IMG/VR virus record: IMGVR_UViG_3300020197_000129
Span: 1-26,769 of that record
Strand: one strand, 5' to 3'
Source: a virus
Length of the DNA stretch: 26,769 bases
Part shown: positions 6,087-20,816 of the stretch, in pieces
How the letters are laid out: every line of letters begins with the position of its first letter
Numbering within the stretch: the first letter of the stretch is position 1
Notes under the pieces: model-generated
What the model saw: the letters and a program-made list of their open reading frames with translations, nothing else
Database searches by the model: none
What the model was told of the DNA's origin: nothing
Made by a program: the position numbers and the translations under genes

Positions 6087-7382
6087 ATGTATTTCATCAT
6101 TGAAAATAAAGAGCAACTAGACCGTCTAGAATTAACAGATGAAGCGTTTATTCAGATTGTTACTTCTAACGATTATTACCATCCTAAGCTGTCTAGAGCA
6201 AGTTTAATTTACTATCATAATGGTAAGAAAGGTTATATTTTTGTAATCAACCATTCAGAAGGTTTTTCACTAAATATTAAATTAGTAGAACAGTTCTTGC
6301 AAAAGCATGATAAGGTCTATCTACTAGACAAGAAGTTTCATTTATACTTTTTAGATCTTCCTAAGTCTATCGATGTACAGTTTATTTGTTTAGATAAAAA
6401 CAATGAATATAGTTCTTTTGAATACAACACTCCGGTTCATCGTGATTTTTATATTAAACATCCTGTACTATCAACAATCAACGAGATTATACCAATTTCT
6501 AAACACTATGAAAAGTGTCAATATTTGTATAAGATGGTAAAAGATTATTTTAATCTTGAAATGGATATTGAATTGCAAGACAGACTTGTTGAAGCATATA
6601 AAAAAGTAGAAGAGACTGGTATTGCTATTGACTTAAAATGCTTTCATAACAAGTTCCAGTTTCAGCACCCAGAGTATAGTTTAGATAGTTCAATTATCTA
6701 TTCATACTACAACCTGTACAACTTAACAGCTAGGCCTACTAATTCATTCAACGGTATTAATTTTCTAGCTATACCTAAAGATAAGGATTTTAGACAGTGT
6801 TTTGTACCAAAGAATGACTTTTTAGTAGAGTTTGATTTTGATGCCTACCATTTAAGGCTTATATCTAGACTCATTGGGTTTGAACTTCCAAAAGAATCTA
6901 TGCATGTCTATTTAGGGCGCTTATACTTTAACCTGACCGAGCTGACTAGTGAGCAATATAAGGAATCAAAGACCATTACATTTAGACAGCTGTATGGAGG
7001 GATTGAGACCAAATATAAACATATAGAATTCTTTAAACACTTAAGTGAGTTTATTGACCAGGAATGGAAGAAGTATAATGCACATAAAGCAGCAGTACTA
7101 CCAACTGGCCGTATTTTGAAGAAGCTTCCTGGCATGAATAAGCTAAAGTTGTTTAACTACATTATTCAGAATCTGGAGACCAAGGAAAACATTGACAAGA
7201 TCTTAGAGATAAATAAACTTCTAAGTAAAAAGAAGACAAAAATTATCTTAATCACCTACGATTCATTCTTATTTGACTTTTGTCAAGAAGATGGAAAAAC
7301 ACTGTTAAAAAAGATAAAAGAAGTGTTAGAAAACAATCAAATGGTCGTAAGACACAAATATGGCACCAACTATGCTTTCTAG
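6087..7382 (+). CDS. Divergent short family A DNA polymerase-like protein with degraded exonuclease domain
   Basis: The 431-residue product shows family A polymerase motifs. Motif A is EFDFDAYHLR (Asp250 at the place of E. coli Pol I Asp705; His255 replaces Glu710; Arg257 kept). Motif B is K295-x3-F299-x3-Y303-G (the O-helix Lys758, Phe762 and Tyr766 positions), but Arg754 is Tyr291. Motif C is LITYDSF (Asp392 at Asp882, flanks His and Glu lost). An upstream ARPTNSFNGINFLAI segment matches the usual RLSSxxPNLQNIP region. Residues 1-100 look like the beta-strand layout of a 3'-5' exonuclease domain, but the DxE motif reads VTSND and the NxxxD motif is absent, so proofreading should be lost. 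Both metal-binding polymerase aspartates remain, so it may still polymerise. It is much shorter than Pol I, and the window has a second, complete polymerase at 15613. GTT-ATG start context. Confidence 0.7.
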   Translation: MYFIIENKEQLDRLELTDEAFIQIVTSNDYYHPKLSRASLIYYHNGKKGYIFVINHSEGFSLNIKLVEQFLQKHDKVYLLDKKFHLYFLDLPKSIDVQFICLDKNNEYSSFEYNTPVHRDFYIKHPVLSTINEIIPISKHYEKCQYLYKMVKDYFNLEMDIELQDRLVEAYKKVEETGIAIDLKCFHNKFQFQHPEYSLDSSIIYSYYNLYNLTARPTNSFNGINFLAIPKDKDFRQCFVPKNDFLVEFDFDAYHLRLISRLIGFELPKESMHVYLGRLYFNLTELTSEQYKESKTITFRQLYGGIETKYKHIEFFKHLSEFIDQEWKKYNAHKAAVLPTGRILKKLPGMNKLKLFNYIIQNLETKENIDKILEINKLLSKKKTKIILITYDSFLFDFCQEDGKTLLKKIKEVLENNQMVVRHKYGTNYAF

Positions 7383-7414: not shown

Positions 7415-7843
7415 ATGCAAGAATCAAAAATTATTGAAATTACAGTTGAAAATTTGATGAATAAGTTATTTTGTACTTTTTCTCCTAAAGATAGTCTAGA
7501 TGATACACTTAGAGAAATTAACAGAGAGTACACTATTTTATATAAAAAGATTTTCGTTTTGGCGTCCCCAGAGTCTGATGAGTTTATGTGTACATACAAC
7601 ATTGAACTCCAAGACGGCAAGACCAAGGTTCTTCCAAATACTATCCTACTCCATAGAAAGAAAGAGTCAAATACTCTTTATACCATTAATGCCTTGAACA
7701 CTTTGATTAAGAAGCTGAATAGTGGTGTACTAGATACATCTTTTATTATCAATTGGAATGATTACAAGAATAGTATCTTGTTGACTCAAGGAGACGACTT
7801 GAAAAGGTTGAACACTACTATCCATAAGATCGTGGCAGTCTAA
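7415..7843 (+). CDS. Conserved phage hypothetical protein, 142 aa
   Basis: I place the start at 7415 (MQESKIIEITVEN…), preceded by AAGTT and an ATATTTAT box. A longer reading from 7280 would overlap the end of the polymerase-like gene by about 100 bases and its extra N-terminus is Lys/Arg-rich and unlike a real domain. The protein has a motif of the type found in T4-like marine phage proteins: PNTILLHRKKESNTLYTINAL (quoted as LHRKKESNTLYTINAL; residues about 88-107), then NSGVLDTSFIINWNDYKNSILL. It looks soluble with no membrane segment and no catalytic motif I can name. Its place between a polymerase-like gene and gp32 suggests a replication-associated or regulatory role, but this is only context. 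Confidence 0.7.
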   Translation: MQESKIIEITVENLMNKLFCTFSPKDSLDDTLREINREYTILYKKIFVLASPESDEFMCTYNIELQDGKTKVLPNTILLHRKKESNTLYTINALNTLIKKLNSGVLDTSFIINWNDYKNSILLTQGDDLKRLNTTIHKIVAV

Positions 7844-8374: not shown

Positions 8375-9157
8375 ATGGACATTTCAGTCATCAAATCAAG
8401 ATTGTCGGCTCTACAGAATCCACGTGGAGGACAAAAGAAAGACCTCACCCAAACTATTTGGAGGCCAACCGTGGGTAAACACTCGGTACGCATTGTACCT
8501 TCTGTGTTTAATAAACAGAATCCTTTTAAAGAAGTTTATATGCACTATGGTATCAATAATAGATCCATGATGGCATTAACTAACTTTGGTGAAAAAGATC
8601 CTATTGTTGAATTTGCACAAGGGCTTCGTAAGTCTAGTGAAAGAGACAATTGGCAACTAGCTAAGAAGCTTGAACCAAAAATGCGTGTATTCGCTCCTGT
8701 AATTGTACGTGGAGAAGAAGACAAAGGGGTGCGCCTTTGGGAGTTCGGTAAGCAAGTCTATATGGACTTACTTTGTATTGCTGAAGACGAAGATGTAGGA
8801 GACTACACAGATCCTATTCAAGGTCGTGATATTACAGTTGAAACTGCTGGGAAAGAAACCACAGGCCTTATGTATAACACATCTACTGTACGTGTTAGAA
8901 CTAAGTCAACGCCTCTATCAGAAGATGGTGACAAAGTAAAACAGTGGTTAGAGAATCAGCCTGATCCTTTAACACAGTTTAAGAGATACACTTATGATGA
9001 AATGAAAGAAGCGCTTCTAAAACACCTGAATCCAGAAGAAGACATCAAAGAACAAGCAGATCAAGTTGTTTCTAAACAGCCTGAAACAGGTCAATATACC
9101 TTGAGCACTAGTAAGCCTAGTATTGACTCTTCTATTGATGATTTATTTGATTTTTAA
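8375..9157 (+). CDS. 32: Single-stranded DNA-binding protein, gp32 type
   Basis: The 260-residue protein has the layout of T4 gp32: a basic N-terminal arm (MDISVIKSRLSALQNPRGGQKK), a central OB-fold region with WRPTVGKHSVRIVP at about 28-42 and FGKQVYMDLL at about 125-135, and an acidic C-terminal tail ending SSIDDLFDF, which in the family recruits replication partners. It would coat single-stranded DNA at the fork and during recombination. The T4 protein's zinc site (one His and three Cys) is missing: the matching region (residues about 55-120) has no cysteine, and the only Cys is in LLCIAED, so the core must be held without zinc. The gene is flanked by terminator-like hairpins on both sides, so it may be transcribed on its own at high level. 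UvsX, RNase H and helicase genes follow. Confidence 0.9.
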   Translation: MDISVIKSRLSALQNPRGGQKKDLTQTIWRPTVGKHSVRIVPSVFNKQNPFKEVYMHYGINNRSMMALTNFGEKDPIVEFAQGLRKSSERDNWQLAKKLEPKMRVFAPVIVRGEEDKGVRLWEFGKQVYMDLLCIAEDEDVGDYTDPIQGRDITVETAGKETTGLMYNTSTVRVRTKSTPLSEDGDKVKQWLENQPDPLTQFKRYTYDEMKEALLKHLNPEEDIKEQADQVVSKQPETGQYTLSTSKPSIDSSIDDLFDF

Positions 9158-9208: not shown

Positions 9209-10279
9209 ATGGCAAAAGCAAAAGAATCGCTTAATAGTACTATATTTAGTGCAATAAAAGGCACAGCAGACATAGAGAAGTTTAAGAAAGGCAAAAACTT
9301 ATCTGCTGGAGTAGTTTTCAAAGAACAGAGTTGGATACCACTTTCAAAAGCATTTCAAGATACGCTACAAATACCAGGAATTCCAATTGGTCACATTACA
9401 TTATTAAGAGGGCACTCTGATACTGGTAAAACTACAGCACTACTTGAAGCCGCAGTTAGTGCACAGAAGCTAGGGATACTACCTGTGTTTATTATCACAG
9501 AGATGAAGTGGGATTGGACACATGCTCGTGAAATGGGCTTTCAATTTGAAGAGGTAGCAGACTCTGCGACAGGAGAAGTTATAGACTATAAAGGCTTCTT
9601 CTTATATATTGATCGTGAAAGGTTAGAGTGTATTGAAGACGTGGCAGGCTTTATTGCTGATATTCTTGATGAACAGAAGAGAGGAACTCTTCCTTACAAC
9701 ATTTGTTTCTTCTGGGATTCTGTAGGGTCAATTCCTTGTAGAATGTCAATAGAGAAAAGTACTAATAATAACGAATGGAATGCAGGCGCGATGTCTCAAC
9801 AGTTCGGTAACTTTATTGATCAAAGGATTATATTATCACGTAAAGCATCGCAGCCCTATACTAATACATTAGTAGCCGTTAATAAGGTGTGGGTAGCTAA
9901 GCCTGATTCACCAATGAGCCAACCTACACTTAATAACAAAGGAGGTAATACTATGTACTTTGACTCGTCTTTAGTTATCACATTTGGCAACATTGCTAGA
10001 GCAGGTACTAACAAAATCAAAGCTACCAAGAACGGTAAAGAAATAGAGTTCGCTAAAAGAACTAGAATTAGCTGTGATAAGAATCACGTAACTGGTGTTA
10101 CAGCTGTTAATAAAGTTATTATGACTGTGCATGGATTTATCAATGATGATAAAAAGGAGCTTGATAACTATAAGAAAGAGTACTCTGATCAGTGGATGAA
10201 AGTTCTTGGATCAACATCATTCGACATAGTTGAAGAAGAAACCGTTTTATCACCAGATATATTTGACACAGCAGATTAA
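9209..10279 (+). CDS. uvsX: UvsX/RecA-type recombinase
   Basis: The 356-residue protein is a RecA-family recombinase that forms filaments on single-stranded DNA and drives strand exchange and recombination-dependent replication. Walker A is GHSDTGKT at 68-75, the catalytic Glu98 lies in IITEMKWDW at the place of RecA Glu96, and the Walker B strand is ICFFWDSVGS with Asp170. A DNA-binding loop-2-like segment follows (LNNKGGNTMYFDSS, about 240-255). The length is close to T4 UvsX (about 390). It lies after gp32 and overlaps the nuclease gene by one base (TAATG), so the two are likely translationally coupled. The upstream gap has ACAGTTTTGTATG before the start and no Shine-Dalgarno. Confidence 0.92.
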   Translation: MAKAKESLNSTIFSAIKGTADIEKFKKGKNLSAGVVFKEQSWIPLSKAFQDTLQIPGIPIGHITLLRGHSDTGKTTALLEAAVSAQKLGILPVFIITEMKWDWTHAREMGFQFEEVADSATGEVIDYKGFFLYIDRERLECIEDVAGFIADILDEQKRGTLPYNICFFWDSVGSIPCRMSIEKSTNNNEWNAGAMSQQFGNFIDQRIILSRKASQPYTNTLVAVNKVWVAKPDSPMSQPTLNNKGGNTMYFDSSLVITFGNIARAGTNKIKATKNGKEIEFAKRTRISCDKNHVTGVTAVNKVIMTVHGFINDDKKELDNYKKEYSDQWMKVLGSTSFDIVEEETVLSPDIFDTAD

Positions 10280-11289
10280 TGAATCCAGAATATAAAAAAA
10301 TATTTGACTCTTTAAAAGAGGAGAAGACCATAGATTCAGTAGATAGCAGAGTACTATTAATAGATGGCCTAAACACCTTCTTAAGAGCATTCGCTGCTAT
10401 TGGTTGGGTAGATAAAAATCTATCACATATTGGTGGCTTAACAGGTTTTCTTAGATCGTTAGGCTATGTAATTAAATTAGTTAGACCAACTAGAGTGATA
10501 ATAGTGTTTGATGGGCAAGGCTCATCTACAAATAAAAGGTATATTTACCCAGAATATAAAGCTAATCGTGGACTTAGTAGAGTAACTAATTGGGATTCAT
10601 TTGAATCACAGCAAGAAGAGTCTGATGCTATGACCGAGCAATTAGTTAGACTGATCTTCTATTTAAAGACATTACCAGTTGATCTATTGTCTATTGATAA
10701 GATAGAAGCAGATGATGTTATAGGTTACATTAGTCAACAGCTTAAAGGTGAAATTACTATCATGTCAAGTGATTGTGACTATCTACAACTAGTTTCTGAT
10801 AAAATCACAATCTATTCACCTACTAAGAAAAAATTTTATGATCATAACCTCGTAGTTACAGAGTACGGTATCAGTCCTAATAACTTTTTGACACAAAAGA
10901 TACTATTAGGTGATTCTGGAGATAATGTACCTGGTGTAAAGGGACTTGGTAGTAAAACTATGCTGAAACACTTTCCAGAATTATCTAAAGATATTGAAGT
11001 ATCTATAGATGATATTCTACAAAAGTGTGAAGGTAAACATAAAATATTAGAGTCTATTAAGAACTTCGAGTTTCAATTAAGGATTAATAAGAAGTTGATG
11101 GATTTAAAACACCCAAATATGTCAGAAGAAGTACTAGAGGAAATAAATAGTGTATTACTTAACCCAAATAAAGTTTATAATTCACAGAAATTTCTTACAT
11201 TATATCATGAAGATGAGTTAGGGAACTCAATTCAAAATGTACAAACGTGGTTATTTAATCATTTTCACAATTTGCAAAAGTATAAATAG
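10279..11289 (+). CDS. rnh: 5'-3' exonuclease / RNase H (flap endonuclease family)
   Basis: The 336-residue protein fits the FEN/T4 RNase H family, which removes RNA primers and flaps during lagging-strand synthesis. Metal-binding acidic residues are visible: LLIDGLN with Asp29, IIVFDG with Asp77, the EADD cluster at 143-146, and MSSDCDYLQL with Asp165 and Asp167. A helix-hairpin-helix segment follows, LLGDSGDNVPGVKGLGSKT (Asp212, Asp215), which in the family contacts the DNA duplex. Size is near that of T4 RNase H (305). The ATG shares its A with the UvsX stop codon, and the helicase starts 2 bases after its own stop, so the three genes form one unit. DNA polymerase in this phage (15613) lacks an attached 5'-3' exonuclease domain, so this protein probably supplies that activity. 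Confidence 0.9.
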   Translation: MNPEYKKIFDSLKEEKTIDSVDSRVLLIDGLNTFLRAFAAIGWVDKNLSHIGGLTGFLRSLGYVIKLVRPTRVIIVFDGQGSSTNKRYIYPEYKANRGLSRVTNWDSFESQQEESDAMTEQLVRLIFYLKTLPVDLLSIDKIEADDVIGYISQQLKGEITIMSSDCDYLQLVSDKITIYSPTKKKFYDHNLVVTEYGISPNNFLTQKILLGDSGDNVPGVKGLGSKTMLKHFPELSKDIEVSIDDILQKCEGKHKILESIKNFEFQLRINKKLMDLKHPNMSEEVLEEINSVLLNPNKVYNSQKFLTLYHEDELGNSIQNVQTWLFNHFHNLQKYK

Positions 11290-11291
11290 TT

Positions 11292-12677
11292 ATGTCGAAT
11301 TTAAACCAGTTACAGCAGTATGGTATCAGTTTTCAAGTTAAGGTACTATCTAGCTTACTAAAGCACAAAGAGTTTTTACAAAATATTAACGACATCTTAG
11401 ATACCGAGATGTTCGATAACCCAGCGCACAAATGGATAGTAGGTGAAATACTTCGTTACTATTACAAATATCATACTACACCATCAGTTGATGCACTACA
11501 GGTTGAAATTAGAAAGATAGAGAATGAAGTGTTGAAGGTGTCAGTAGTAGAACAGTTGAAAGAAGCGTTGAAAGCGTCTAATGATGACCGTGATTATGTA
11601 GAGCAAGAGTTTAGTAGCTTCTGTAAAAATCAACAAATCAAGAAAGCTATTTTGAATTCAGTAAGTCTGTTAGAAAAAGGCCAATATGATGATATTAAAT
11701 ATATGATGGACGCTGCCTTAAAAGCAGGTCAAGATAAGTCTATAGGCCACGAATACGAAAAAGATATTGAAACAAGGTATCGTGAAGAAGAGCGTGCCGC
11801 TATTCCTACAGCATGGCCACACGTAAATGAACTATTAATGGGAGGCCTTGGTGCTGGTGACTTTGGTATTATATTCGGAAATCCTGGAGGTGGCAAATCA
11901 TGGATGCTAATTAATATGGGAGCTATGGCAGTACAACACGGTTATACAGTTTGTCATTATACACTAGAATTATCTGAATATTATATAGGTAAAAGATATG
12001 ACTCCTTGTTTACCGGGATTGATGTACAAGCTGTACATAGACACAGAGCCGCCATTGAAGAAGCGGTGTCTAAGGTAAAAGGTAAGCTGATTATTAAAGA
12101 GTTTTCTATGGGAAAAACAACTATACATACCATTGAATCACACATTCAAAAGTGTAGAGATCTTGGGTACTCACCAGATCTAGTTATTGTTGATTATGTT
12201 GACCTATTGAAAAGTAAAATTAAATCAATAGATCCAAAAGATGCAATTGACGATGTTTACTCTGCTACTAAAGGTATGGCAAGAGATTTAAAAGTACCTA
12301 TCTGGACTGTGTCACAGGTAAATCGTGCAGGTGCTAAAGATGACGTAATCGAAGGTGACAAGGCAGCCGGGTCGTATAACAAGATGATGATAGCAGATTT
12401 TGCTATGTCATTATCAAGAAAAAGGCAAGATAAAATGAATGGTACAGGCCGTATTCATATTATGAAAAATCGATATGGCATGGATGGTATGACCTACGCT
12501 GCCAAGATCAGTACTAACAATGGGTCTATTGAGATTAATCCAGACAGCCTAGATGACGACGAATTAAACATAGAAACATCAACTCCAATTTCAGGCTCAA
12601 ATAAAGTATATAGTTCTAGTCTAGATCGTGATGAAAAGGCATATTTGGTATCCAAATTTTTTGAGCTCAATATCTAA
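11292..12677 (+). CDS. 41: Replicative DNA helicase, DnaB/gp41 type
   Basis: The 461-residue protein has an N-terminal helical domain (LLKHKEFLQNINDILDTEMF, quoted to its first 20 residues, typical of DnaB-like helicases) and a RecA-like ATPase domain. Walker A is GNPGGGKS at 196-203, preceded by MGGLGAGDFGIIFG. HYTLELSE supplies the catalytic-Glu strand, LVIVDYVDLLK the Walker B strand, and PIWTVSQVNRAG the sensor motif H4. It would be the hexameric helicase that unwinds the fork and works with a primase not present in this window. Start context is GTT-ATG directly after the stop of the nuclease gene. The C-terminal 50 residues are Asp/Ser-rich and probably flexible. Confidence 0.92.
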   Translation: MSNLNQLQQYGISFQVKVLSSLLKHKEFLQNINDILDTEMFDNPAHKWIVGEILRYYYKYHTTPSVDALQVEIRKIENEVLKVSVVEQLKEALKASNDDRDYVEQEFSSFCKNQQIKKAILNSVSLLEKGQYDDIKYMMDAALKAGQDKSIGHEYEKDIETRYREEERAAIPTAWPHVNELLMGGLGAGDFGIIFGNPGGGKSWMLINMGAMAVQHGYTVCHYTLELSEYYIGKRYDSLFTGIDVQAVHRHRAAIEEAVSKVKGKLIIKEFSMGKTTIHTIESHIQKCRDLGYSPDLVIVDYVDLLKSKIKSIDPKDAIDDVYSATKGMARDLKVPIWTVSQVNRAGAKDDVIEGDKAAGSYNKMMIADFAMSLSRKRQDKMNGTGRIHIMKNRYGMDGMTYAAKISTNNGSIEINPDSLDDDELNIETSTPISGSNKVYSSSLDRDEKAYLVSKFFELNI

Positions 12678-13055: not shown

Positions 13056-14966
13056 ATGGAATTAAAGGACGTGCAAACCCCTTGGGGAGAAATTGGTTAT
13101 ATTACATTTAAAAGAACGTATGCAAGACGAATAAAAGAAGACGATTCTAATTCCAAGACAGAAGAGTTTTGGCAAGTTGTACAGCGTGAACTTGATGCTT
13201 CTGATAAGCAACTTAAAGTAGGTTTTACTGAAGAAGAGAAAAAAAGGTATGCTGAGATGAGACTCAATTTAAAGTTTTCTACAGCCGGCCGTTTTATGTG
13301 GCAGCTTGGCACTAAAACTGTAGATAAGCTAGGCCTTCCGTCACTACAAAACTGCGCATTTGTTACAGTTAATAATCCTATTAGACCTTTTACATGGGCA
13401 TTTGAAATGTTGATGCTAGGCTCAGGTGTCGGATACAATATTCAGAAGCACAATGTTTATCAACTACCTAAAGTAAAAGGAAAAGTAAAGATAGAACGTA
13501 AAGATGTAAAAGACGCTGATTTCATTGTGCCAGATACAAGAGAAGGTTGGGTAAAACTACTTGGTAAAGTATTGAAAGCCCACTTCTATTCTGGAGAAAG
13601 TTTTACATATTCCACGATGTTAATCAGATCTAAAGGAGCTACTATTAAAGGATTCGGTGGCACAGCATCTGGCCCAGAAGATCTTTGTTGGGGTATTAGT
13701 GAGATCAACAAGATATTAAATAGTCGTGCTAATAAGAAGCTAAGACCAATCGACTGCTTAGACATTATGAATATTATTGGTATGATAGTTGTAGCAGGAA
13801 ATGTTAGACGTTCTGCACAAATATCTATTGGTGATTATGATGATATTGAGTATTTAAAAGCCAAGCGTTGGGATTTCGGTTCTATTCCTAACTGGAGATC
13901 CATGAGTAATAACTCAATAGTAGCTCCAGAAAATACTAATGATTTACTTCCTGAATTCTGGGAAACTTATAATCAAGGTGAGCCTTATGGTCTTATAAAC
14001 TTAGAATTATCTAAAACAGTTGGTCGTACAGGTGAAACACAATATCCTGATCCAGAAGTAGAAGGATTCAATCCTTGTGCTGAGCAATCACTTTCTAATT
14101 TTGAAACATGTTGCCTAGCTGAGGTATATCTGCCTAATATTAATACATATGATGAGTTATTAGAAGCTATTACGTTTACATATCGTATGAACAAACACTC
14201 TCTTAATTTACATTGTTTTTTAAAAGAAACAGAAAATGTTGTTCATAAAAATATGAGAATGGGAATTGGCATGACAGGTATTTTACAAGCCACAGAAGAA
14301 CAACGTAGTTGGTTAAAAGATGCTTACGTTTGGCTTCGTGAGTATGACAAAAACTACTCAGCTAAGCACAAATTCCCAGTGAGTATTAAATTAACTACTG
14401 TCAAACCATCTGGCACCTTAAGTTTGTTAGCAGGCGTAACTCCAGGTGTGCATCCAAACCCAGCAGGCCCATATTATATTCGTCGTGTAAGAATATCATC
14501 ACAATCACCATTAGTAGATGTTTGCCGTCAACACGGTTACCACATTGAATACCAAATAAAGTTTGATGGTTCAGAAGATAAGTCTACAATGGTAATATCA
14601 TTCCCTTGTAAACTACCTCTAACTACACCTGTTGCTGCCGATTATGACTGGAAAACACAGATGGACATGGTATGTCGTATGCAAGCTGAGTGGAGTGACA
14701 ATTCTGTAAGTTGTACTGTATATTATAAAAAAGAAGACATAGAAGATATCAAGAAGTACTTAAAAGAGCACTTTAGACATAAAATGAAGACGGTATCATT
14801 TTTGTTGTATCATGGTCACGGTTTTGATCAAGCGCCGTACGAGACTATCACAGAAACACAGTATCTTGAAATGATAAAGAGTGTTAAACCAATTACGTCT
14901 GTTGAAGTAAAAGAATCAGAAATGGAACTTATTGAGTGTGAATATGGAAAATGCCCGGTTAAGTAA
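13056..14966 (+). CDS. nrdJ: Class II (adenosylcobalamin-dependent) ribonucleotide reductase, monomeric RTPR type
   Basis: The 636-residue protein would reduce ribonucleoside (tri)phosphates to deoxy forms using a cobalamin-derived radical, without oxygen or a small subunit. Expected residues are present: QNCAF with Cys100 (reducible pair with Cys352 or Cys353 in FETCCLAEV), the thiyl-radical site FNPCAEQSLSN with Asn339, Cys341 and Glu343, the conserved TVKPSGTLSLLAGVTPGVHP stretch, and a C-terminal shuttle pair CEYGKC (Cys628, Cys633). The Lactobacillus-type monomeric enzyme is about 740 residues, so this one is compact. T4 itself has a class I enzyme; class II versions occur in some marine phages, and cobalamin would have to come from the host or its surroundings. 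It stands alone in a unit of its own, with a hairpin before it. Confidence 0.92.
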   Translation: MELKDVQTPWGEIGYITFKRTYARRIKEDDSNSKTEEFWQVVQRELDASDKQLKVGFTEEEKKRYAEMRLNLKFSTAGRFMWQLGTKTVDKLGLPSLQNCAFVTVNNPIRPFTWAFEMLMLGSGVGYNIQKHNVYQLPKVKGKVKIERKDVKDADFIVPDTREGWVKLLGKVLKAHFYSGESFTYSTMLIRSKGATIKGFGGTASGPEDLCWGISEINKILNSRANKKLRPIDCLDIMNIIGMIVVAGNVRRSAQISIGDYDDIEYLKAKRWDFGSIPNWRSMSNNSIVAPENTNDLLPEFWETYNQGEPYGLINLELSKTVGRTGETQYPDPEVEGFNPCAEQSLSNFETCCLAEVYLPNINTYDELLEAITFTYRMNKHSLNLHCFLKETENVVHKNMRMGIGMTGILQATEEQRSWLKDAYVWLREYDKNYSAKHKFPVSIKLTTVKPSGTLSLLAGVTPGVHPNPAGPYYIRRVRISSQSPLVDVCRQHGYHIEYQIKFDGSEDKSTMVISFPCKLPLTTPVAADYDWKTQMDMVCRMQAEWSDNSVSCTVYYKKEDIEDIKKYLKEHFRHKMKTVSFLLYHGHGFDQAPYETITETQYLEMIKSVKPITSVEVKESEMELIECEYGKCPVK

Positions 14967-15612: not shown

Positions 15613-17916
15613 ATGAATAAAAGTTATGTTACGGTAAGGTCTCTTGATACACTAAAAGAGATGGTTGATCACATTAAGTCGCACGACCTTATTTCATTTG
15701 ACACAGAAACAAACAGCTTAAATCCTCGTAAAGGTAAGATTATTGGCTTCTCAGTATCAGCTGAAGTTGGTAAAGGCTTTTATATGCCTACTATGATCTG
15801 TGTTGATGGTGAATTACAAGACGCTTATATTAATGAAAAATTATGTCATGACATTGCAAAGAAGACTATTTCGCTTTTAATTGGAAAAAAGCTTGTGATG
15901 CACAACGCATCATTTGATTGTAGATTTGTTAAATGCTTTTATGGAATAGACTTGCTGTCTAGTTTATATGTCGATACACTATTATTAGTACATACAGTAC
16001 GTGAAGAAGGTGCAGGATTTATGGCTGGTTCATCATTTGGCTTAAAAGATATTGCTAAGACTATTCAAAAAGATATCGGTCTAGATATTGAGCAAGCTGC
16101 AAATGAAGAACAGTTGAAGATGAAAGAGTCTATTAAGAATAACGGTGGATCAATTACACGTGAAAATTATGAGATATGGAAAGCAGATCTTGAACTATTA
16201 TCAGAGTATGCATCAGCAGATACTGACTTGACTCTTAGAATATATTACTACTTCATGAATACACTAAAAGAAGAAGGACTGGAGAAGTTTTTCTTTGAAG
16301 ACGAGGTAATGCCTGTCTATAAAGAGGTAACTATTCCTATGGAGATGGTTGGTATGAAGATAGACATTGATCTTATAAATACTAGTCGTATTAAAATTAT
16401 AGAAGAGCTACAAAAGTATTCTGATCTTGTTATCAAAGAGTTGTTGAAGCATGAGTCTGTACGTGCTTGGGTTATTATGAAAGCACTAGATGCATATCCA
16501 CCTAATAACAAAGGTACATTTGCTCAAGAGCTTTGTCGTGAAGCTAACCTAGATCTTGAAGTGTCTAATAAAACACAAAAGCACAGCTTAACACAATCAG
16601 CTTTGATCAGACTTCCTGAATCACCATACAAACATTTTTTATTACGTGGTGATCAATCTGTACTTGATAAAGATTTTATAACTAAGATTAGTCTTAGACT
16701 ATGGAAAGAAGATAATGATGGACAATTCTTTAATATACAATCTAAAGATCAGTTAGGAGAAATTGCTTTCGGTGTACTTGGTATTAAATTTAAAGCCACT
16801 ACAAAGACAGGTAAGCCACAGTTTGATGATGATGCTGTGCAATCTATTGCTAACAAGTTTAATTGGGCAAAGAACTTACGTATCTACAACCGACTACTAA
16901 AGATTAAATCAACATACATGGACCGTTTTCTTGACAATCAAGAAGATGGCCGATACTACTTCTATTACAAACAACATGGTACTGTGTCTGGTCGTTACGG
17001 TTCAGACGCTCAACAGCTACCTAGACCTAAAGAAGAAGGAGATGATGAGCCTATTGTTATAGAGTACAACAACTTAATTCGTAAATTCTTTATATCAGAA
17101 GAACATAACATATTTATTGACTGTGACTATGAATCACTTGAGCCGCATGCATTTGCTCACGTATCAGGTGACGAAGGCTTGAAAGATATTTTTCGTAATA
17201 ACTGGGACTTCTATTCTACTATTGCAATCAAAACAGAAGGGCTTACTCAATATTCACCAGACAAAAATGTGCCTAACTTCTTACGTAAGCTAGAACCTAA
17301 ACTTAGAAATAAAGCTAAAGCGTACGCACTAGGTATACCTTATGGTATGGGAGCTTATGCTCTTGGTATGAATTTAGGAATATCAACAAAAGATGCTAAA
17401 AAACTAGTTGATGGTTATTTGAATGGATTTCCTGAACTCAAGAAGTGGATGGAAAGATCTAAGAAACAGGCTAAAGAGCAAGGTTTTATTAAAACTCAAG
17501 TTGGTCGTATTCGCCACTTACCAAAAGTAAAAGCTATCTACGATAAGATAGGTGACGATCTACTTAATTGGAATATGAAGAGAGCAATGGAACGTCAGTA
17601 TGGAGTCGAAAGAATCAAGAACTTAAGTCGTGACTATACCAATGGACTTAATAATGCATGTAATGTTCAGATTCAAGGCCTAGCGGCTTCAATTGTAAAC
17701 CGTGCAGCTTTAGCTATTAACCGTAAGTTTCAACAGATGGGTATTAATGGTTGGGTATGTGCACAAATCCATGACCAGTTGGTAATTGAGGTAGAACACT
17801 CAAGAGCAGAAGAAGCGGCCAGGATCGTCCAGGATTTGATGGAGAACACAACCAAGCTTAGTATCTCATTGAAAGCGCCACCAGCTCTAGCCAGTAATCT
17901 CAAAGACGGACATTAA
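15613..17916 (+). CDS. DNA polymerase, family A, with 3'-5' exonuclease domain
   Basis: The 767-residue protein is probably the replicative polymerase of the phage. The proofreading domain is intact: Exo I FDTET (Asp30, Glu32), Exo II HNASFD (Asn98, Asp102), Exo III YASAD (Tyr199, Asp203). Polymerase motif A is DCDYESLEPH (Asp505, Glu510; His512 where Arg is usual), motif B is R565-x3-K569-x3-L573-x3-Y577-G, and motif C is QIHDQLVIE (His720, Asp721). Two changes stand out: Leu573 replaces the O-helix Phe/Tyr, and Gln722 replaces the usual Glu of HDE. There is no 5'-3' exonuclease domain; the gene at 10279 supplies one. T4 uses a family B enzyme (gp43), so use of family A in a T4-type phage marks a different branch. 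Confidence 0.92.
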   Translation: MNKSYVTVRSLDTLKEMVDHIKSHDLISFDTETNSLNPRKGKIIGFSVSAEVGKGFYMPTMICVDGELQDAYINEKLCHDIAKKTISLLIGKKLVMHNASFDCRFVKCFYGIDLLSSLYVDTLLLVHTVREEGAGFMAGSSFGLKDIAKTIQKDIGLDIEQAANEEQLKMKESIKNNGGSITRENYEIWKADLELLSEYASADTDLTLRIYYYFMNTLKEEGLEKFFFEDEVMPVYKEVTIPMEMVGMKIDIDLINTSRIKIIEELQKYSDLVIKELLKHESVRAWVIMKALDAYPPNNKGTFAQELCREANLDLEVSNKTQKHSLTQSALIRLPESPYKHFLLRGDQSVLDKDFITKISLRLWKEDNDGQFFNIQSKDQLGEIAFGVLGIKFKATTKTGKPQFDDDAVQSIANKFNWAKNLRIYNRLLKIKSTYMDRFLDNQEDGRYYFYYKQHGTVSGRYGSDAQQLPRPKEEGDDEPIVIEYNNLIRKFFISEEHNIFIDCDYESLEPHAFAHVSGDEGLKDIFRNNWDFYSTIAIKTEGLTQYSPDKNVPNFLRKLEPKLRNKAKAYALGIPYGMGAYALGMNLGISTKDAKKLVDGYLNGFPELKKWMERSKKQAKEQGFIKTQVGRIRHLPKVKAIYDKIGDDLLNWNMKRAMERQYGVERIKNLSRDYTNGLNNACNVQIQGLAASIVNRAALAINRKFQQMGINGWVCAQIHDQLVIEVEHSRAEEAARIVQDLMENTTKLSISLKAPPALASNLKDGH

Positions 17917-18139: not shown

Positions 18140-18550
18140 ATGGGAATATTTAAACCATTTGAGCTGGATCCATTTGACCTGCTCTGGAGAGACTTGTTAG
18201 AAACACAATCTCATTTCTCTGCAATTACGCAGAAAGTAACACATCCAGTAGACATTTACGAAACAGAAGCCGGCATTCGTTTTGAAATTGCCGCAGTAGG
18301 CATTGACAAAGAAGACGTCGATATCCTTATTGAAGGAGATCAACTTCGCATTAAGTACGATAAAACACGACCAGTAGATCAAGAGGCCGCGATTTATCGT
18401 GGTATCAAGAAAGGATCTTTCGATCTTAGTTGGAAGATTAGTTCTAAATTTGATCTAAACAAACTAGGAGCCAAGTTAGATAAAGGACTCCTAACATTAA
18501 CAATTCCAGTAGCTGAAGGAAAAGCTATCAAGAGAATTGAACTAAAATAA
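18140..18550 (+). CDS. hsp20: Small heat shock protein, Hsp20/alpha-crystallin family
   Basis: The 136-residue protein has the alpha-crystallin domain at about residues 36-125: VDIYETEAGIRFEIAAVG, DVDILIEGDQLRIKYDK, YRGIKKGSFDLSWKI, and the family's hallmark near the end, KLDKGLLTLTIPV. A C-terminal KAIKRIELK resembles the I-x-I anchoring region of bacterial Hsp20. It would bind unfolding proteins without ATP and hand them on. Hsp20 genes are known from T4-like cyanophages. Here it heads a block that also holds GroES and GroEL, suggesting that the phage carries its own folding set for virion or host-takeover proteins. The 5' leader is the longest in the window and structured, so this gene is likely individually regulated. 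Confidence 0.9.
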   Translation: MGIFKPFELDPFDLLWRDLLETQSHFSAITQKVTHPVDIYETEAGIRFEIAAVGIDKEDVDILIEGDQLRIKYDKTRPVDQEAAIYRGIKKGSFDLSWKISSKFDLNKLGAKLDKGLLTLTIPVAEGKAIKRIELK

Positions 18551-18578
18551 GGTAAATAGGCCTACTAAGTATCAAGTT

Positions 18579-18767
18579 ATGTTTCAAATCTGTCAAAACT
18601 TTATTAGAATTAATGATGATTTATTTTTAGTAAAGCGTACTTTTCCTGAAGAAAGAATCAAGAACTTTAATTTAGCAAAAGAATGGTTAAAAGTAGATTT
18701 TGTTTTTAAAAGAGAAGGCTTACTCTATTTTTGTGATAAAATAATTGATCTAGAAATTATAAATTAA
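18579..18767 (+). CDS. Small hypothetical protein, 62 aa
   Basis: The protein starts at a GTT-ATG context 28 bases after Hsp20 and ends 4 bases before GroES. It is rich in Phe, Lys and Ile (MFQICQNFIRINDDLFLVKR, EWLKVDFVFKREGLLYFCDK) and looks like a small alpha/beta domain. No family motif, membrane segment or signal peptide is evident. Tight linkage to the cochaperonin gene is the only functional hint. Confidence 0.6.
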   Translation: MFQICQNFIRINDDLFLVKRTFPEERIKNFNLAKEWLKVDFVFKREGLLYFCDKIIDLEIIN

Positions 18768-18771
18768 TTTT

Positions 18772-19173
18772 ATGAATAAAATAACCCCTTTAAATGGTTT
18801 TGTAATATTAAAACCAATTGAAACACAAGAAGAGACATTCGGTAATATTATTATTCCAGATCTTGGTAAAGAAAGGCCAGAAGTAGGAGAGGTAGTTGGA
18901 TCTTCGGCAGTTTATAATTTTCACACAGATAAACATGTTGAGTCTAAGTTAACACCAGGTCAAATTGTATTGATCCCTAAACTAGGATCACAAAGGATTG
19001 TTCTTGATGGACAAGATTACTTTATTTGTAAAGAGACAGACATTTTTGCAATCATTTATGATGAAGCAAATCCTAATCCAATCAATTATGAAGTTCATGC
19101 TAATAGTCCTTATAATGATGGTTGGACTAGAGAATATTATCAAAACATTTTAGACAAAGAAAAAAATAAATAA
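18772..19173 (+). CDS. groES: GroES-type cochaperonin with C-terminal extension
   Basis: The 133-residue protein has the GroES layout: N-terminal strand ITPLNGFVILKPIETQEET, a mobile-loop region with NIIIPDLGKERPEVGEVVG (about residues 23-42), then TPGQIVLIPKLGSQRIVLDGQDYF and the closing strand KETDIFAII. It would cap the GroEL ring. Cellular GroES has about 97 residues; this protein has about 30 more (EANPNPINYEV…DKEKNK), a polar, aromatic tail absent from cellular forms. T4 encodes only a diverged cochaperonin, gp31, which works with host GroEL to fold the capsid protein; here the cochaperonin is followed after 2 bases by its own GroEL gene, so the pair is likely co-translated. Unlike gp31 it is recognisably GroES in sequence. 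Confidence 0.88.
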   Translation: MNKITPLNGFVILKPIETQEETFGNIIIPDLGKERPEVGEVVGSSAVYNFHTDKHVESKLTPGQIVLIPKLGSQRIVLDGQDYFICKETDIFAIIYDEANPNPINYEVHANSPYNDGWTREYYQNILDKEKNK

Positions 19174-19175
19174 AG

Positions 19176-20816
19176 ATGGGTACAACTAAAAGTTTTTTTG
19201 GAATCGAACTTAAAGAAAAACTGTTACAAGGTATAGAGAAGTTAAACAACTCTGTATCATCAACATTAGGGCCAGGTGGCCGTACTGTTTTGATTCGTGA
19301 ACAAAATGGTGAAGTTAAAGTTACAAAAGATGGTGTAACTGTAGCTAAAGCTTTTCATAAATTAGAAGACGATATCGAAGACCTAGGTGCACAACTTGTT
19401 AAGCAAGTTAGTATCAAGAGTGCAAATGAAGCAGGTGATGGTACTACCACATCTACTTTGATTGCGACTGAGCTTGTTAAGCAAGGTCTGAAAGAGATTC
19501 GTCAAGGTGTAAACGCTGTAGAAATTAAGAATGAGATCGACAACATTGTGAATCAAATTGTTGAAGAGATCAAAGAGTTGGCTACAGAAGTATCATCAGA
19601 AGAGCAGATTAAACAAGTTGCAACTATATCAGGTAACAACGATTCAGAGGTTGGGAACTTGATAGCCGAGGCTCTTGATAAAGTAGGGCGTGATGGTATT
19701 GTCACAATTGAAGAGTCTAAGTCAGGCGAAACTACTCTTGAAGTTGTAGAAGGTATGCAATTTGATCGTGGTTACAAATCACCTTATTTTGTAACAAACA
19801 ACACGACAATGCAAGCTGTGCTTGACAATCCTTATATCCTACTTTATGATGGCCGTATTTCTACTGCACAAGAACTACTGCAAGTACTAACTAAGGCTAA
19901 CTCTGAGAATAAATCGATATTAATTATTGCTGAAGATATTGGAGACGAAGCTTTAGCAACACTTATTGTAAACAAGATGCGTGGGATCGTGCAAGTATGT
20001 GCAGTAAAAGCACCAGACTTTGGAGAGCGCAAAACTCTTATCTTAGAAGACATTGCTGTCTTGACTGGTGGTCAAGTGATATCTAAAGACAAAGGCTTGA
20101 AGTTAGATAAACTAACTACACAACAACTATCACAGTTTTTAGGTACAACTAGACTTGTTACTGTATCTAAAGAAGAGACTACTATCATTGATGGTAAAGG
20201 TGATGAGAAAGCAATCGCTAATCGTGCAATAGAAATCAAAAATCAAATTGATCAAGCTACTTCATTTTATGAGAAAGAGAAGTTACAAGAGAGACTTGGT
20301 AAGTTGGTCGGTGGTGTTGCTATCATCTCTGTTGGAGGTAATAGTGATATTGAGATTAGAGAAAAAAAATATCGTGTAGAAGATGCTTTATTTGCAACTA
20401 AAGCAGCATTAGCCGACGGTATTGTTCCAGGCGGTGGTGTAGCATTGTTAAGAGCTGCAAAGTTAGGCAATCTTAGTTTTGATAATAAAGTAGATTTTAA
20501 TGATAACTCTAACATCGTAACTGCTAGAATTATATTGAAAGCAGCACTCGTTGCACCTTTCATCAAAATATTATCAAATGCTGGTATTGATAACTGGTGG
20601 GAATTTATTCCAAATGAAGGTGAAGTGTATGACGTTAAGAATTATGCAACTGTCAATGCATTAGAAGCAGGTATCATTGACCCAGCAAAAGTAGTGATAA
20701 CAGCCCTCAAGAATGCATCTTCTGTTGCTGGCACAATCTTAACCACAGAATCAGTTGTGTTCGAAAAGAAAGATAAGGACGAGAAAGGACAAGATCATAT
20801 GATGAGTATGATGTAA
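19176..20816 (+). CDS. groEL: GroEL chaperonin (complete)
   Basis: The 546-residue protein matches GroEL in full length. ATP-site residues are kept: TLGPGGRTVLI at 30-40, TKDG with Asp52, GDGTTT with Asp88, and VEDALFATKAAL with Asp403 at the place of catalytic Asp398; GIVPGGGVALLRAA follows. Apical-domain segments are normal (VVEGMQFDRGYKSPYFVTN, ILIIAEDIGDEALATLIVNK, APDFGERK). The usual GGM repeat tail is replaced by DHMMSMM. With the preceding GroES this gives the phage its own folding chamber. The ring should be active because no key residue is missing. The many CGT, GGT and ACT codons and higher GC than the structural region suggest it is well expressed or of separate origin. Phage GroEL genes are uncommon, and fewer come with GroES. 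Confidence 0.95.
   Translation: MGTTKSFFGIELKEKLLQGIEKLNNSVSSTLGPGGRTVLIREQNGEVKVTKDGVTVAKAFHKLEDDIEDLGAQLVKQVSIKSANEAGDGTTTSTLIATELVKQGLKEIRQGVNAVEIKNEIDNIVNQIVEEIKELATEVSSEEQIKQVATISGNNDSEVGNLIAEALDKVGRDGIVTIEESKSGETTLEVVEGMQFDRGYKSPYFVTNNTTMQAVLDNPYILLYDGRISTAQELLQVLTKANSENKSILIIAEDIGDEALATLIVNKMRGIVQVCAVKAPDFGERKTLILEDIAVLTGGQVISKDKGLKLDKLTTQQLSQFLGTTRLVTVSKEETTIIDGKGDEKAIANRAIEIKNQIDQATSFYEKEKLQERLGKLVGGVAIISVGGNSDIEIREKKYRVEDALFATKAALADGIVPGGGVALLRAAKLGNLSFDNKVDFNDNSNIVTARIILKAALVAPFIKILSNAGIDNWWEFIPNEGEVYDVKNYATVNALEAGIIDPAKVVITALKNASSVAGTILTTESVVFEKKDKDEKGQDHMMSMM

Follow-up and report, generated by a model that had tools for sequence, protein, structure and literature searches.

A new member of the divPolA1 family of divergent family A DNA polymerases, encoded beside the recombination and replication genes of a phage

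The window analysed here is a 26.8-kb viral fragment (26,769 nucleotides, IMG/VR record IMGVR_UViG_3300020197_000129), and full genome content was therefore judged from relatives, near ones of which lie on contigs of 136-162 kb. The gene of interest encodes a 431-residue protein and is named divPolA1 below, after the family to which the product is assigned. Tail/baseplate-type genes flank it on one side and a replication cluster on the other; it is followed by a 142-residue ORF, another small ORF and the genes for a single-strand DNA binding protein (SSB), UvsX, a FEN-type nuclease, DnaB, a ribonucleotide reductase and a regular PolA of 767 residues. Conservation of the downstream genes was counted in 44 representatives whose downstream sequence extends for 7 kb or more.

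6087..7382, + strand: divPolA1 gene, 431 aa (intact ORF, homology to gp1 of phage immuto, AlphaFold2 model and Foldseek)
7415..7843, + strand: companion ORF, 142 aa (downstream of divPolA1 in 43/44 representatives; AlphaFold2 pLDDT 90.2)
8375..9157, + strand: gp32-type single-strand DNA binding protein (phrog_1192, E=2.8e-19; 44/44 loci)
9209..10279, + strand: UvsX/RecA-type recombinase (phrog_97, E=3.7e-14; 44/44 loci)
10279..11289, + strand: separate 5'-3' exonuclease of the FEN type (PF02739, E=1.5e-29; 42/44 loci)
11292..12677, + strand: DnaB-type replicative helicase (phrog_19, E=2.6e-75; 41/44 loci)
15613..17916, + strand: regular PolA with exonuclease and polymerase domains, 767 aa, probably the main polymerase (PF00476, E=2.1e-65, and PF01612; motif alignment)

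Upstream of divPolA1 the same pair of structural genes was found in all 44 representatives that have at least 6.5 kb of upstream sequence. The companion ORF, which lies between divPolA1 and the SSB gene in 43 of the 44 downstream loci, belongs to a family with the motif HRKKETNTLYTINALN and a dN/dS of 0.054. Searches by PHROGs, PDB profile and fold gave no identification (the model is of the alpha/beta type, with no confident PDB match), and the protein is likely an unrecognised replication or regulation protein. The ribonucleotide reductase (13056-14966) matches the B12-dependent insertion domain PF21995; at the same site Flavobacterium phage immuto carries a two-subunit enzyme of the NrdA/NrdF type instead. 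The regular PolA is followed at 18140-20816 by genes for an Hsp20-like protein, GroES and GroEL; immuto has the same GroES/GroEL pair after its PolA. Chaperonins near the regular DNA polymerase have been reported for all divPolA1 genomes (Yutin et al., PMC11348598).

The 431-residue ORF contains no internal stops and has a codon use like that of the neighbouring genes, as an initial annotation made from the DNA letters had described; its GC3 is likewise similar to theirs. As a single query the protein gave no Pfam or PHROG polymerase match, and the L083 single-sequence scan gave no match; PF00476 was not hit directly by this sequence alone, whereas 75 of 113 aligned relatives match it individually. 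A phmmer search against the PDB returned chance matches only. BLASTP against the 767-residue PolA of the window found nothing, and the proposal that the protein is a relative of that enzyme holds at the level of family A only. Since the single-protein Pfam and PHROG scans were empty, the protein was identified through its homologues, the alignment profile and the fold. Gp1 of immuto, annotated as 'DNA polymerase family A', is a homologue (34.7% identity over 99%, E=8e-62, tblastn). The profile of a 20-sequence alignment has Klenow as its top PDB match (E=0.0011) with the motifs in correct register, and the AlphaFold2 model built on a 113-sequence alignment (pLDDT 94.5, pTM 0.90) matched Pol I large fragments in Foldseek with E ~1e-18, probability 1.0 and a query TM-score of up to 0.77. 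Profile, Foldseek and motif alignment all place motifs A, B and C in order on a palm fold; the initial annotation had made its reading depend on such a fold, and the model has it. We conclude from homology and model that the product is a member of the family A DNA polymerases, an assignment that we hold to be nearly certain (a judgement of ours, not a computed value).

The family has been described before. Yutin et al. (2024, Virol J 21:200, PMC11348598) named divPolA1 from 14 phages, immuto among them. In their description the palm retains the main catalytic residues, the thumb is truncated and the exonuclease domain inactivated; the genomes, of 155-190 kb, have conserved replication genes downstream of divPolA1 and also encode a regular DNA polymerase of family A, B or C. 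They read the neighbourhood as one of replication. The window protein combines homology, the palm residues, a dead exonuclease, a short thumb, downstream replication genes and an accompanying regular DNA polymerase, and is on this comparison a new member of the published family, in a subclade that shares about 35% identity with immuto. In the literature searched, the name divPolA1 occurs only in Yutin et al. and its preprint. Pattern scans of IMG/VR gave 438, 312 and 109 confirmed loci and a profile search at least 588, in overlapping sets. Among GenBank phages (50,697 records) clear homologues were confined to four records of immuto, Microcystis phage Mel-JY01 and the 484-kb LR756508, and among GTDB genomes to two MAG contigs, which are presumably viral. 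Hundreds of IMG/VR members are thus added to the family of Yutin et al.; the invariant histidine at the steric gate, the short members without an exonuclease-like domain and the fixed link to SSB and UvsX, all described below, are absent from the main text of PMC11348598.

Residue conservation was assessed in 93 representatives with less than 80% identity, and the register was set by a MAFFT alignment with eight regular phage PolAs together with an HMM alignment to Klenow. The parts of the protein are as follows.

6087..6476, + strand: exonuclease-like domain, catalytic acids missing (aa 1-130, boundary approximate; strand-strand-strand-helix-strand order in the model)
6477..6701, + strand: reduced thumb (approximately aa 131-205; modelled with two long helices, H137-154 and H161-177)
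6702..7379, + strand: palm and fingers (aa 206-431; profile match to Klenow, Foldseek)
6732..6734, + strand: Arg216 (Pol I R668), 93/93 representatives
6834..6836, + strand: Asp250, motif A metal ligand (Pol I D705), 93/93 representatives
6849..6851, + strand: His255, steric-gate position (Pol I E710), His in 93/93, whereas the eight aligned regular phage PolAs have Glu
6957..6959, + strand: Tyr291 (Pol I R754), Tyr in 85, Arg in 3, Ile in 3, Met in 1 and Val in 1 of 93
6969..6995, + strand: O-helix Lys295, Phe299 and Tyr303 (Pol I K758, F762 and Y766), each 93/93
7155..7169, + strand: Asn357 and Gln361 (Pol I N845 and Q849), 91/93 and 92/93
7257..7262, + strand: Tyr391-Asp392, motif C (Pol I H881-D882), each 92/93, the remaining one a gap

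Both alignments agree that Asp250 and Asp392 are the metal aspartates and that the Lys-Phe-Tyr of the O-helix is kept, in line with the first reading of the locus, and the two aspartates, whose free variation would have told against that reading, do not vary among the 93 representatives apart from the single gap at Asp392. Arg216, Asn357 and Gln361 extend the set of kept residues beyond those listed earlier. At the positions of E710, R754 and H881 each of the eight regular phage PolAs carries Glu, Arg and His, respectively, so that the changes noticed there in the window protein stand. The change at Glu883 does not stand as a distinctive feature: most regular phage PolAs, the window's own included, also have Ser, Ala or Gln directly after the motif C aspartate. 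As E883 varies among regular enzymes, divPolA1 is marked only by the changes at E710, R754 and H881. The 767-residue PolA itself has Leu at the 762 position, IHDQ as motif C and DYESLEPHAFA as motif A, in which Pol I R712 is changed as well.

From this pattern, two-metal catalysis and the reading of a template are probably kept in divPolA1, and the handling of the nucleotide appears to have been rebuilt, the E710 position being always His. Klenow biochemistry leads one to expect that changes of Glu710, Arg754 and His881 would damage a normal Pol I; with the three changed jointly, divPolA1 may use dNTPs poorly or act on an unusual substrate. One could take the same replacements as a sign of a non-catalytic structural or regulatory partner in the replisome that has kept the fold only, a view to which the newly conserved His32, His56, Lys82 and Lys83 in the exonuclease-like domain of most members also lend something. 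A dead scaffold needs, however, neither the metal Asp pair nor the O-helix Lys, Phe and Tyr nor the equivalents of Arg668 and Gln849, all of which are invariant, and we regard such a partner as improbable. The invariance of the catalytic set likewise opposes the dead clamp-like partner offered in the initial annotation. The terminal transferase offered there is without support, since the template-contact equivalents of R668, Y766, N845 and Q849 are kept; accessory or translesion-type primer extension, also on that list, remains a candidate. Our judgement, again not a calculated figure, is that divPolA1 is very probably catalytically active.

A more specific consequence of the rebuilt pocket would be an altered choice of sugar, i.e. 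insertion of ribonucleotides or synthesis of RNA or mixed primers. In Pol I the steric gate is Glu710 (PMC13228545), a position occupied by His in all 93 representatives. His is still bulky, however, the gate helper Phe299 is invariant, and immuto, the best annotated relative, already has a DnaG primase; altered sugar choice is therefore very unlikely in our view. Because immuto encodes its own DnaG as well as a full PolA, divPolA1 is needed neither as primase nor as main replicase. A replacement for a missing primase had been among the candidates and was dropped on finding the DnaG of immuto.

The exonuclease-like domain has lost its acids. Motif I reads VTSND in the window protein, without the DxE, and the acid pair is missing throughout the divPolA1 alignment, so that the loss first noticed in this one protein extends to the family and proofreading is predicted to be lost. 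His32, His56, Lys82, Lys83 and Asp96 are conserved in place of the catalytic acids; wherever the domain is present His56 is retained, and most sequences also keep His32, Lys82 and Lys83. The domain is missing from six representatives, 326-339 residues in length (L299, L294, L313, L295, L327 and L336), which nevertheless have the palm with all catalytic residues. The thumb takes up some 75 residues between the exonuclease-like domain and the palm in the model, which is short in comparison with Klenow, and the fingers also appear shorter; both comparisons of length are based on the known residue numbering of Klenow.

Among near relatives the median dN/dS of divPolA1 is 0.050, with 0.063 for the exonuclease-like domain, 0.026 for the thumb and 0.035 for palm and fingers; the overall value is similar to those of UvsX (0.052) and DnaB (0.044), while SSB gives 0.082 and FEN 0.103. 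Decay of the gene is ruled out by these ratios and by the invariant residues, and the original view of a living protein with selective losses is borne out. The strong constraint even on the dead exonuclease domain points to a probable structural or binding function where the domain is present.

The wording of the initial annotation, a second polymerase next to a complete one, had suggested paralogy, and here the outcome differs. The 24 long records with divPolA1 encode as main polymerase a full PolA (10), a PolB (11) or neither (3, fragments), and none encodes both; LR756508 has a family C polymerase match too. divPolA1 thus stays while the main polymerase is swapped, and since the main polymerase of the carriers is of family A or B, never both, a recent origin of divPolA1 by copying of the 767-residue enzyme is excluded. 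In the tree a branch with 100/100 support separates the divPolA1 clade from the regular phage PolAs; the 767-residue PolA of the window pairs with the PolA of immuto, and the divPolA1 of the window groups with other divPolA1s. These pairings imply that the two lineages split before the phages did. Recent paralogy is rejected by this topology, and in the tree divPolA1 forms a separate deep lineage, kept also beside a family B main polymerase; a constraint forcing divPolA1 together with the PolAs of the window and immuto was not rejected (p-AU 0.07).

Strong selection and constant recombination-gene neighbours indicate that divPolA1 is probably a working helper polymerase. We consider it reasonably probable, from sequence and model, that it is an active, non-proofreading, template-dependent accessory family A polymerase in recombination-dependent replication, gap filling or bypass. 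It would work as an accessory enzyme of low processivity inside an SSB-UvsX-FEN-helicase module, having lost proofreading and part of thumb and fingers and kept the two-metal active site. It might extend 3' ends produced by UvsX strand invasion and fill gaps left by the main polymerase, including those at Okazaki fragments or beside lesions, while the separate FEN gene could provide the 5' nuclease activity, which in bacterial Pol I is part of the same chain. DNA polymerisation, low processivity and the assignment to recombination, gap filling or bypass are all inferred. Its association with SSB, UvsX and FEN speaks for D-loop extension, gap filling or bypass rather than for bulk replication; the neighbourhood indicates joint use rather than the exact step, and for the specific role our (uncomputed) judgement is at or a little above even.

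A narrower reading has the enzyme as a dedicated translesion polymerase, copying damaged template during infection in place of Y-family enzymes. Proofreading is absent, fingers and thumb are shorter, and a Y-family polymerase was found in none of the 24 long records, some of which are incomplete contigs. Furthermore, motif A is D-[FY]-D-[AGS]-[YF]-H in most representatives and recalls motif I of the Y-family, D-x-D-x-F-[FY], a likeness that may be convergence. Such a short likeness is weak, however, and the Y-family IMS profile PF00817 has no match in Pfam scans of the 431-residue protein; moreover, bypass could come from host polymerases, and the gene order indicates recombination as much as bypass. 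We regard a dedicated translesion enzyme as unlikely. Similarly doubtful is the bolder idea that divPolA1 forms a distinct class of family A whose rebuilt pocket (Glu710 to His, Arg754 to Tyr and His881 to Tyr) would give a UvsX-coupled bypass or ribonucleotide-tolerant polymerase, a phage counterpart of the Y-family. Phages of this kind carry two DNA polymerases, one of them without proofreading; if active, the small enzyme would be a source of phage mutation as well as a tool for repair or recombination, and some members, with only about 330 residues, would rank with the smallest polymerases of family A.

Finally, the protein can be set beside known systems. With gp1 of immuto it shares full-length homology at 35%; with divPolA1 as published, the palm Asp residues, the loss of the exonuclease acids, the short thumb, the downstream replication genes and the additional regular DNA polymerase. 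Klenow and Bst have the same palm, O-helix and motif order and the residues equivalent to R668, D705, K758, F762, Y766, N845, Q849 and D882, whereas the window protein has 431 rather than about 605 residues and carries His, Tyr and Tyr at E710, R754 and H881. Unlike Pol I, it lacks a proofreading site, has a short thumb and short fingers, and has the 5' nuclease on a separate gene. Y-family polymerases have no proofreading, small fingers and thumb, and a little-finger domain; motif A looks alike, yet the domain arrangement differs and no profile match was found, so this is a resemblance only. The divPolA2 proteins of the Rheinheimera barbaviruses are, like divPolA1, divergent additional PolAs without working proofreading, but are set apart by the published description, with an unrelated N-terminal domain, no typical thumb and variable neighbourhoods, and may be RNA polymerases (PMC11348598).
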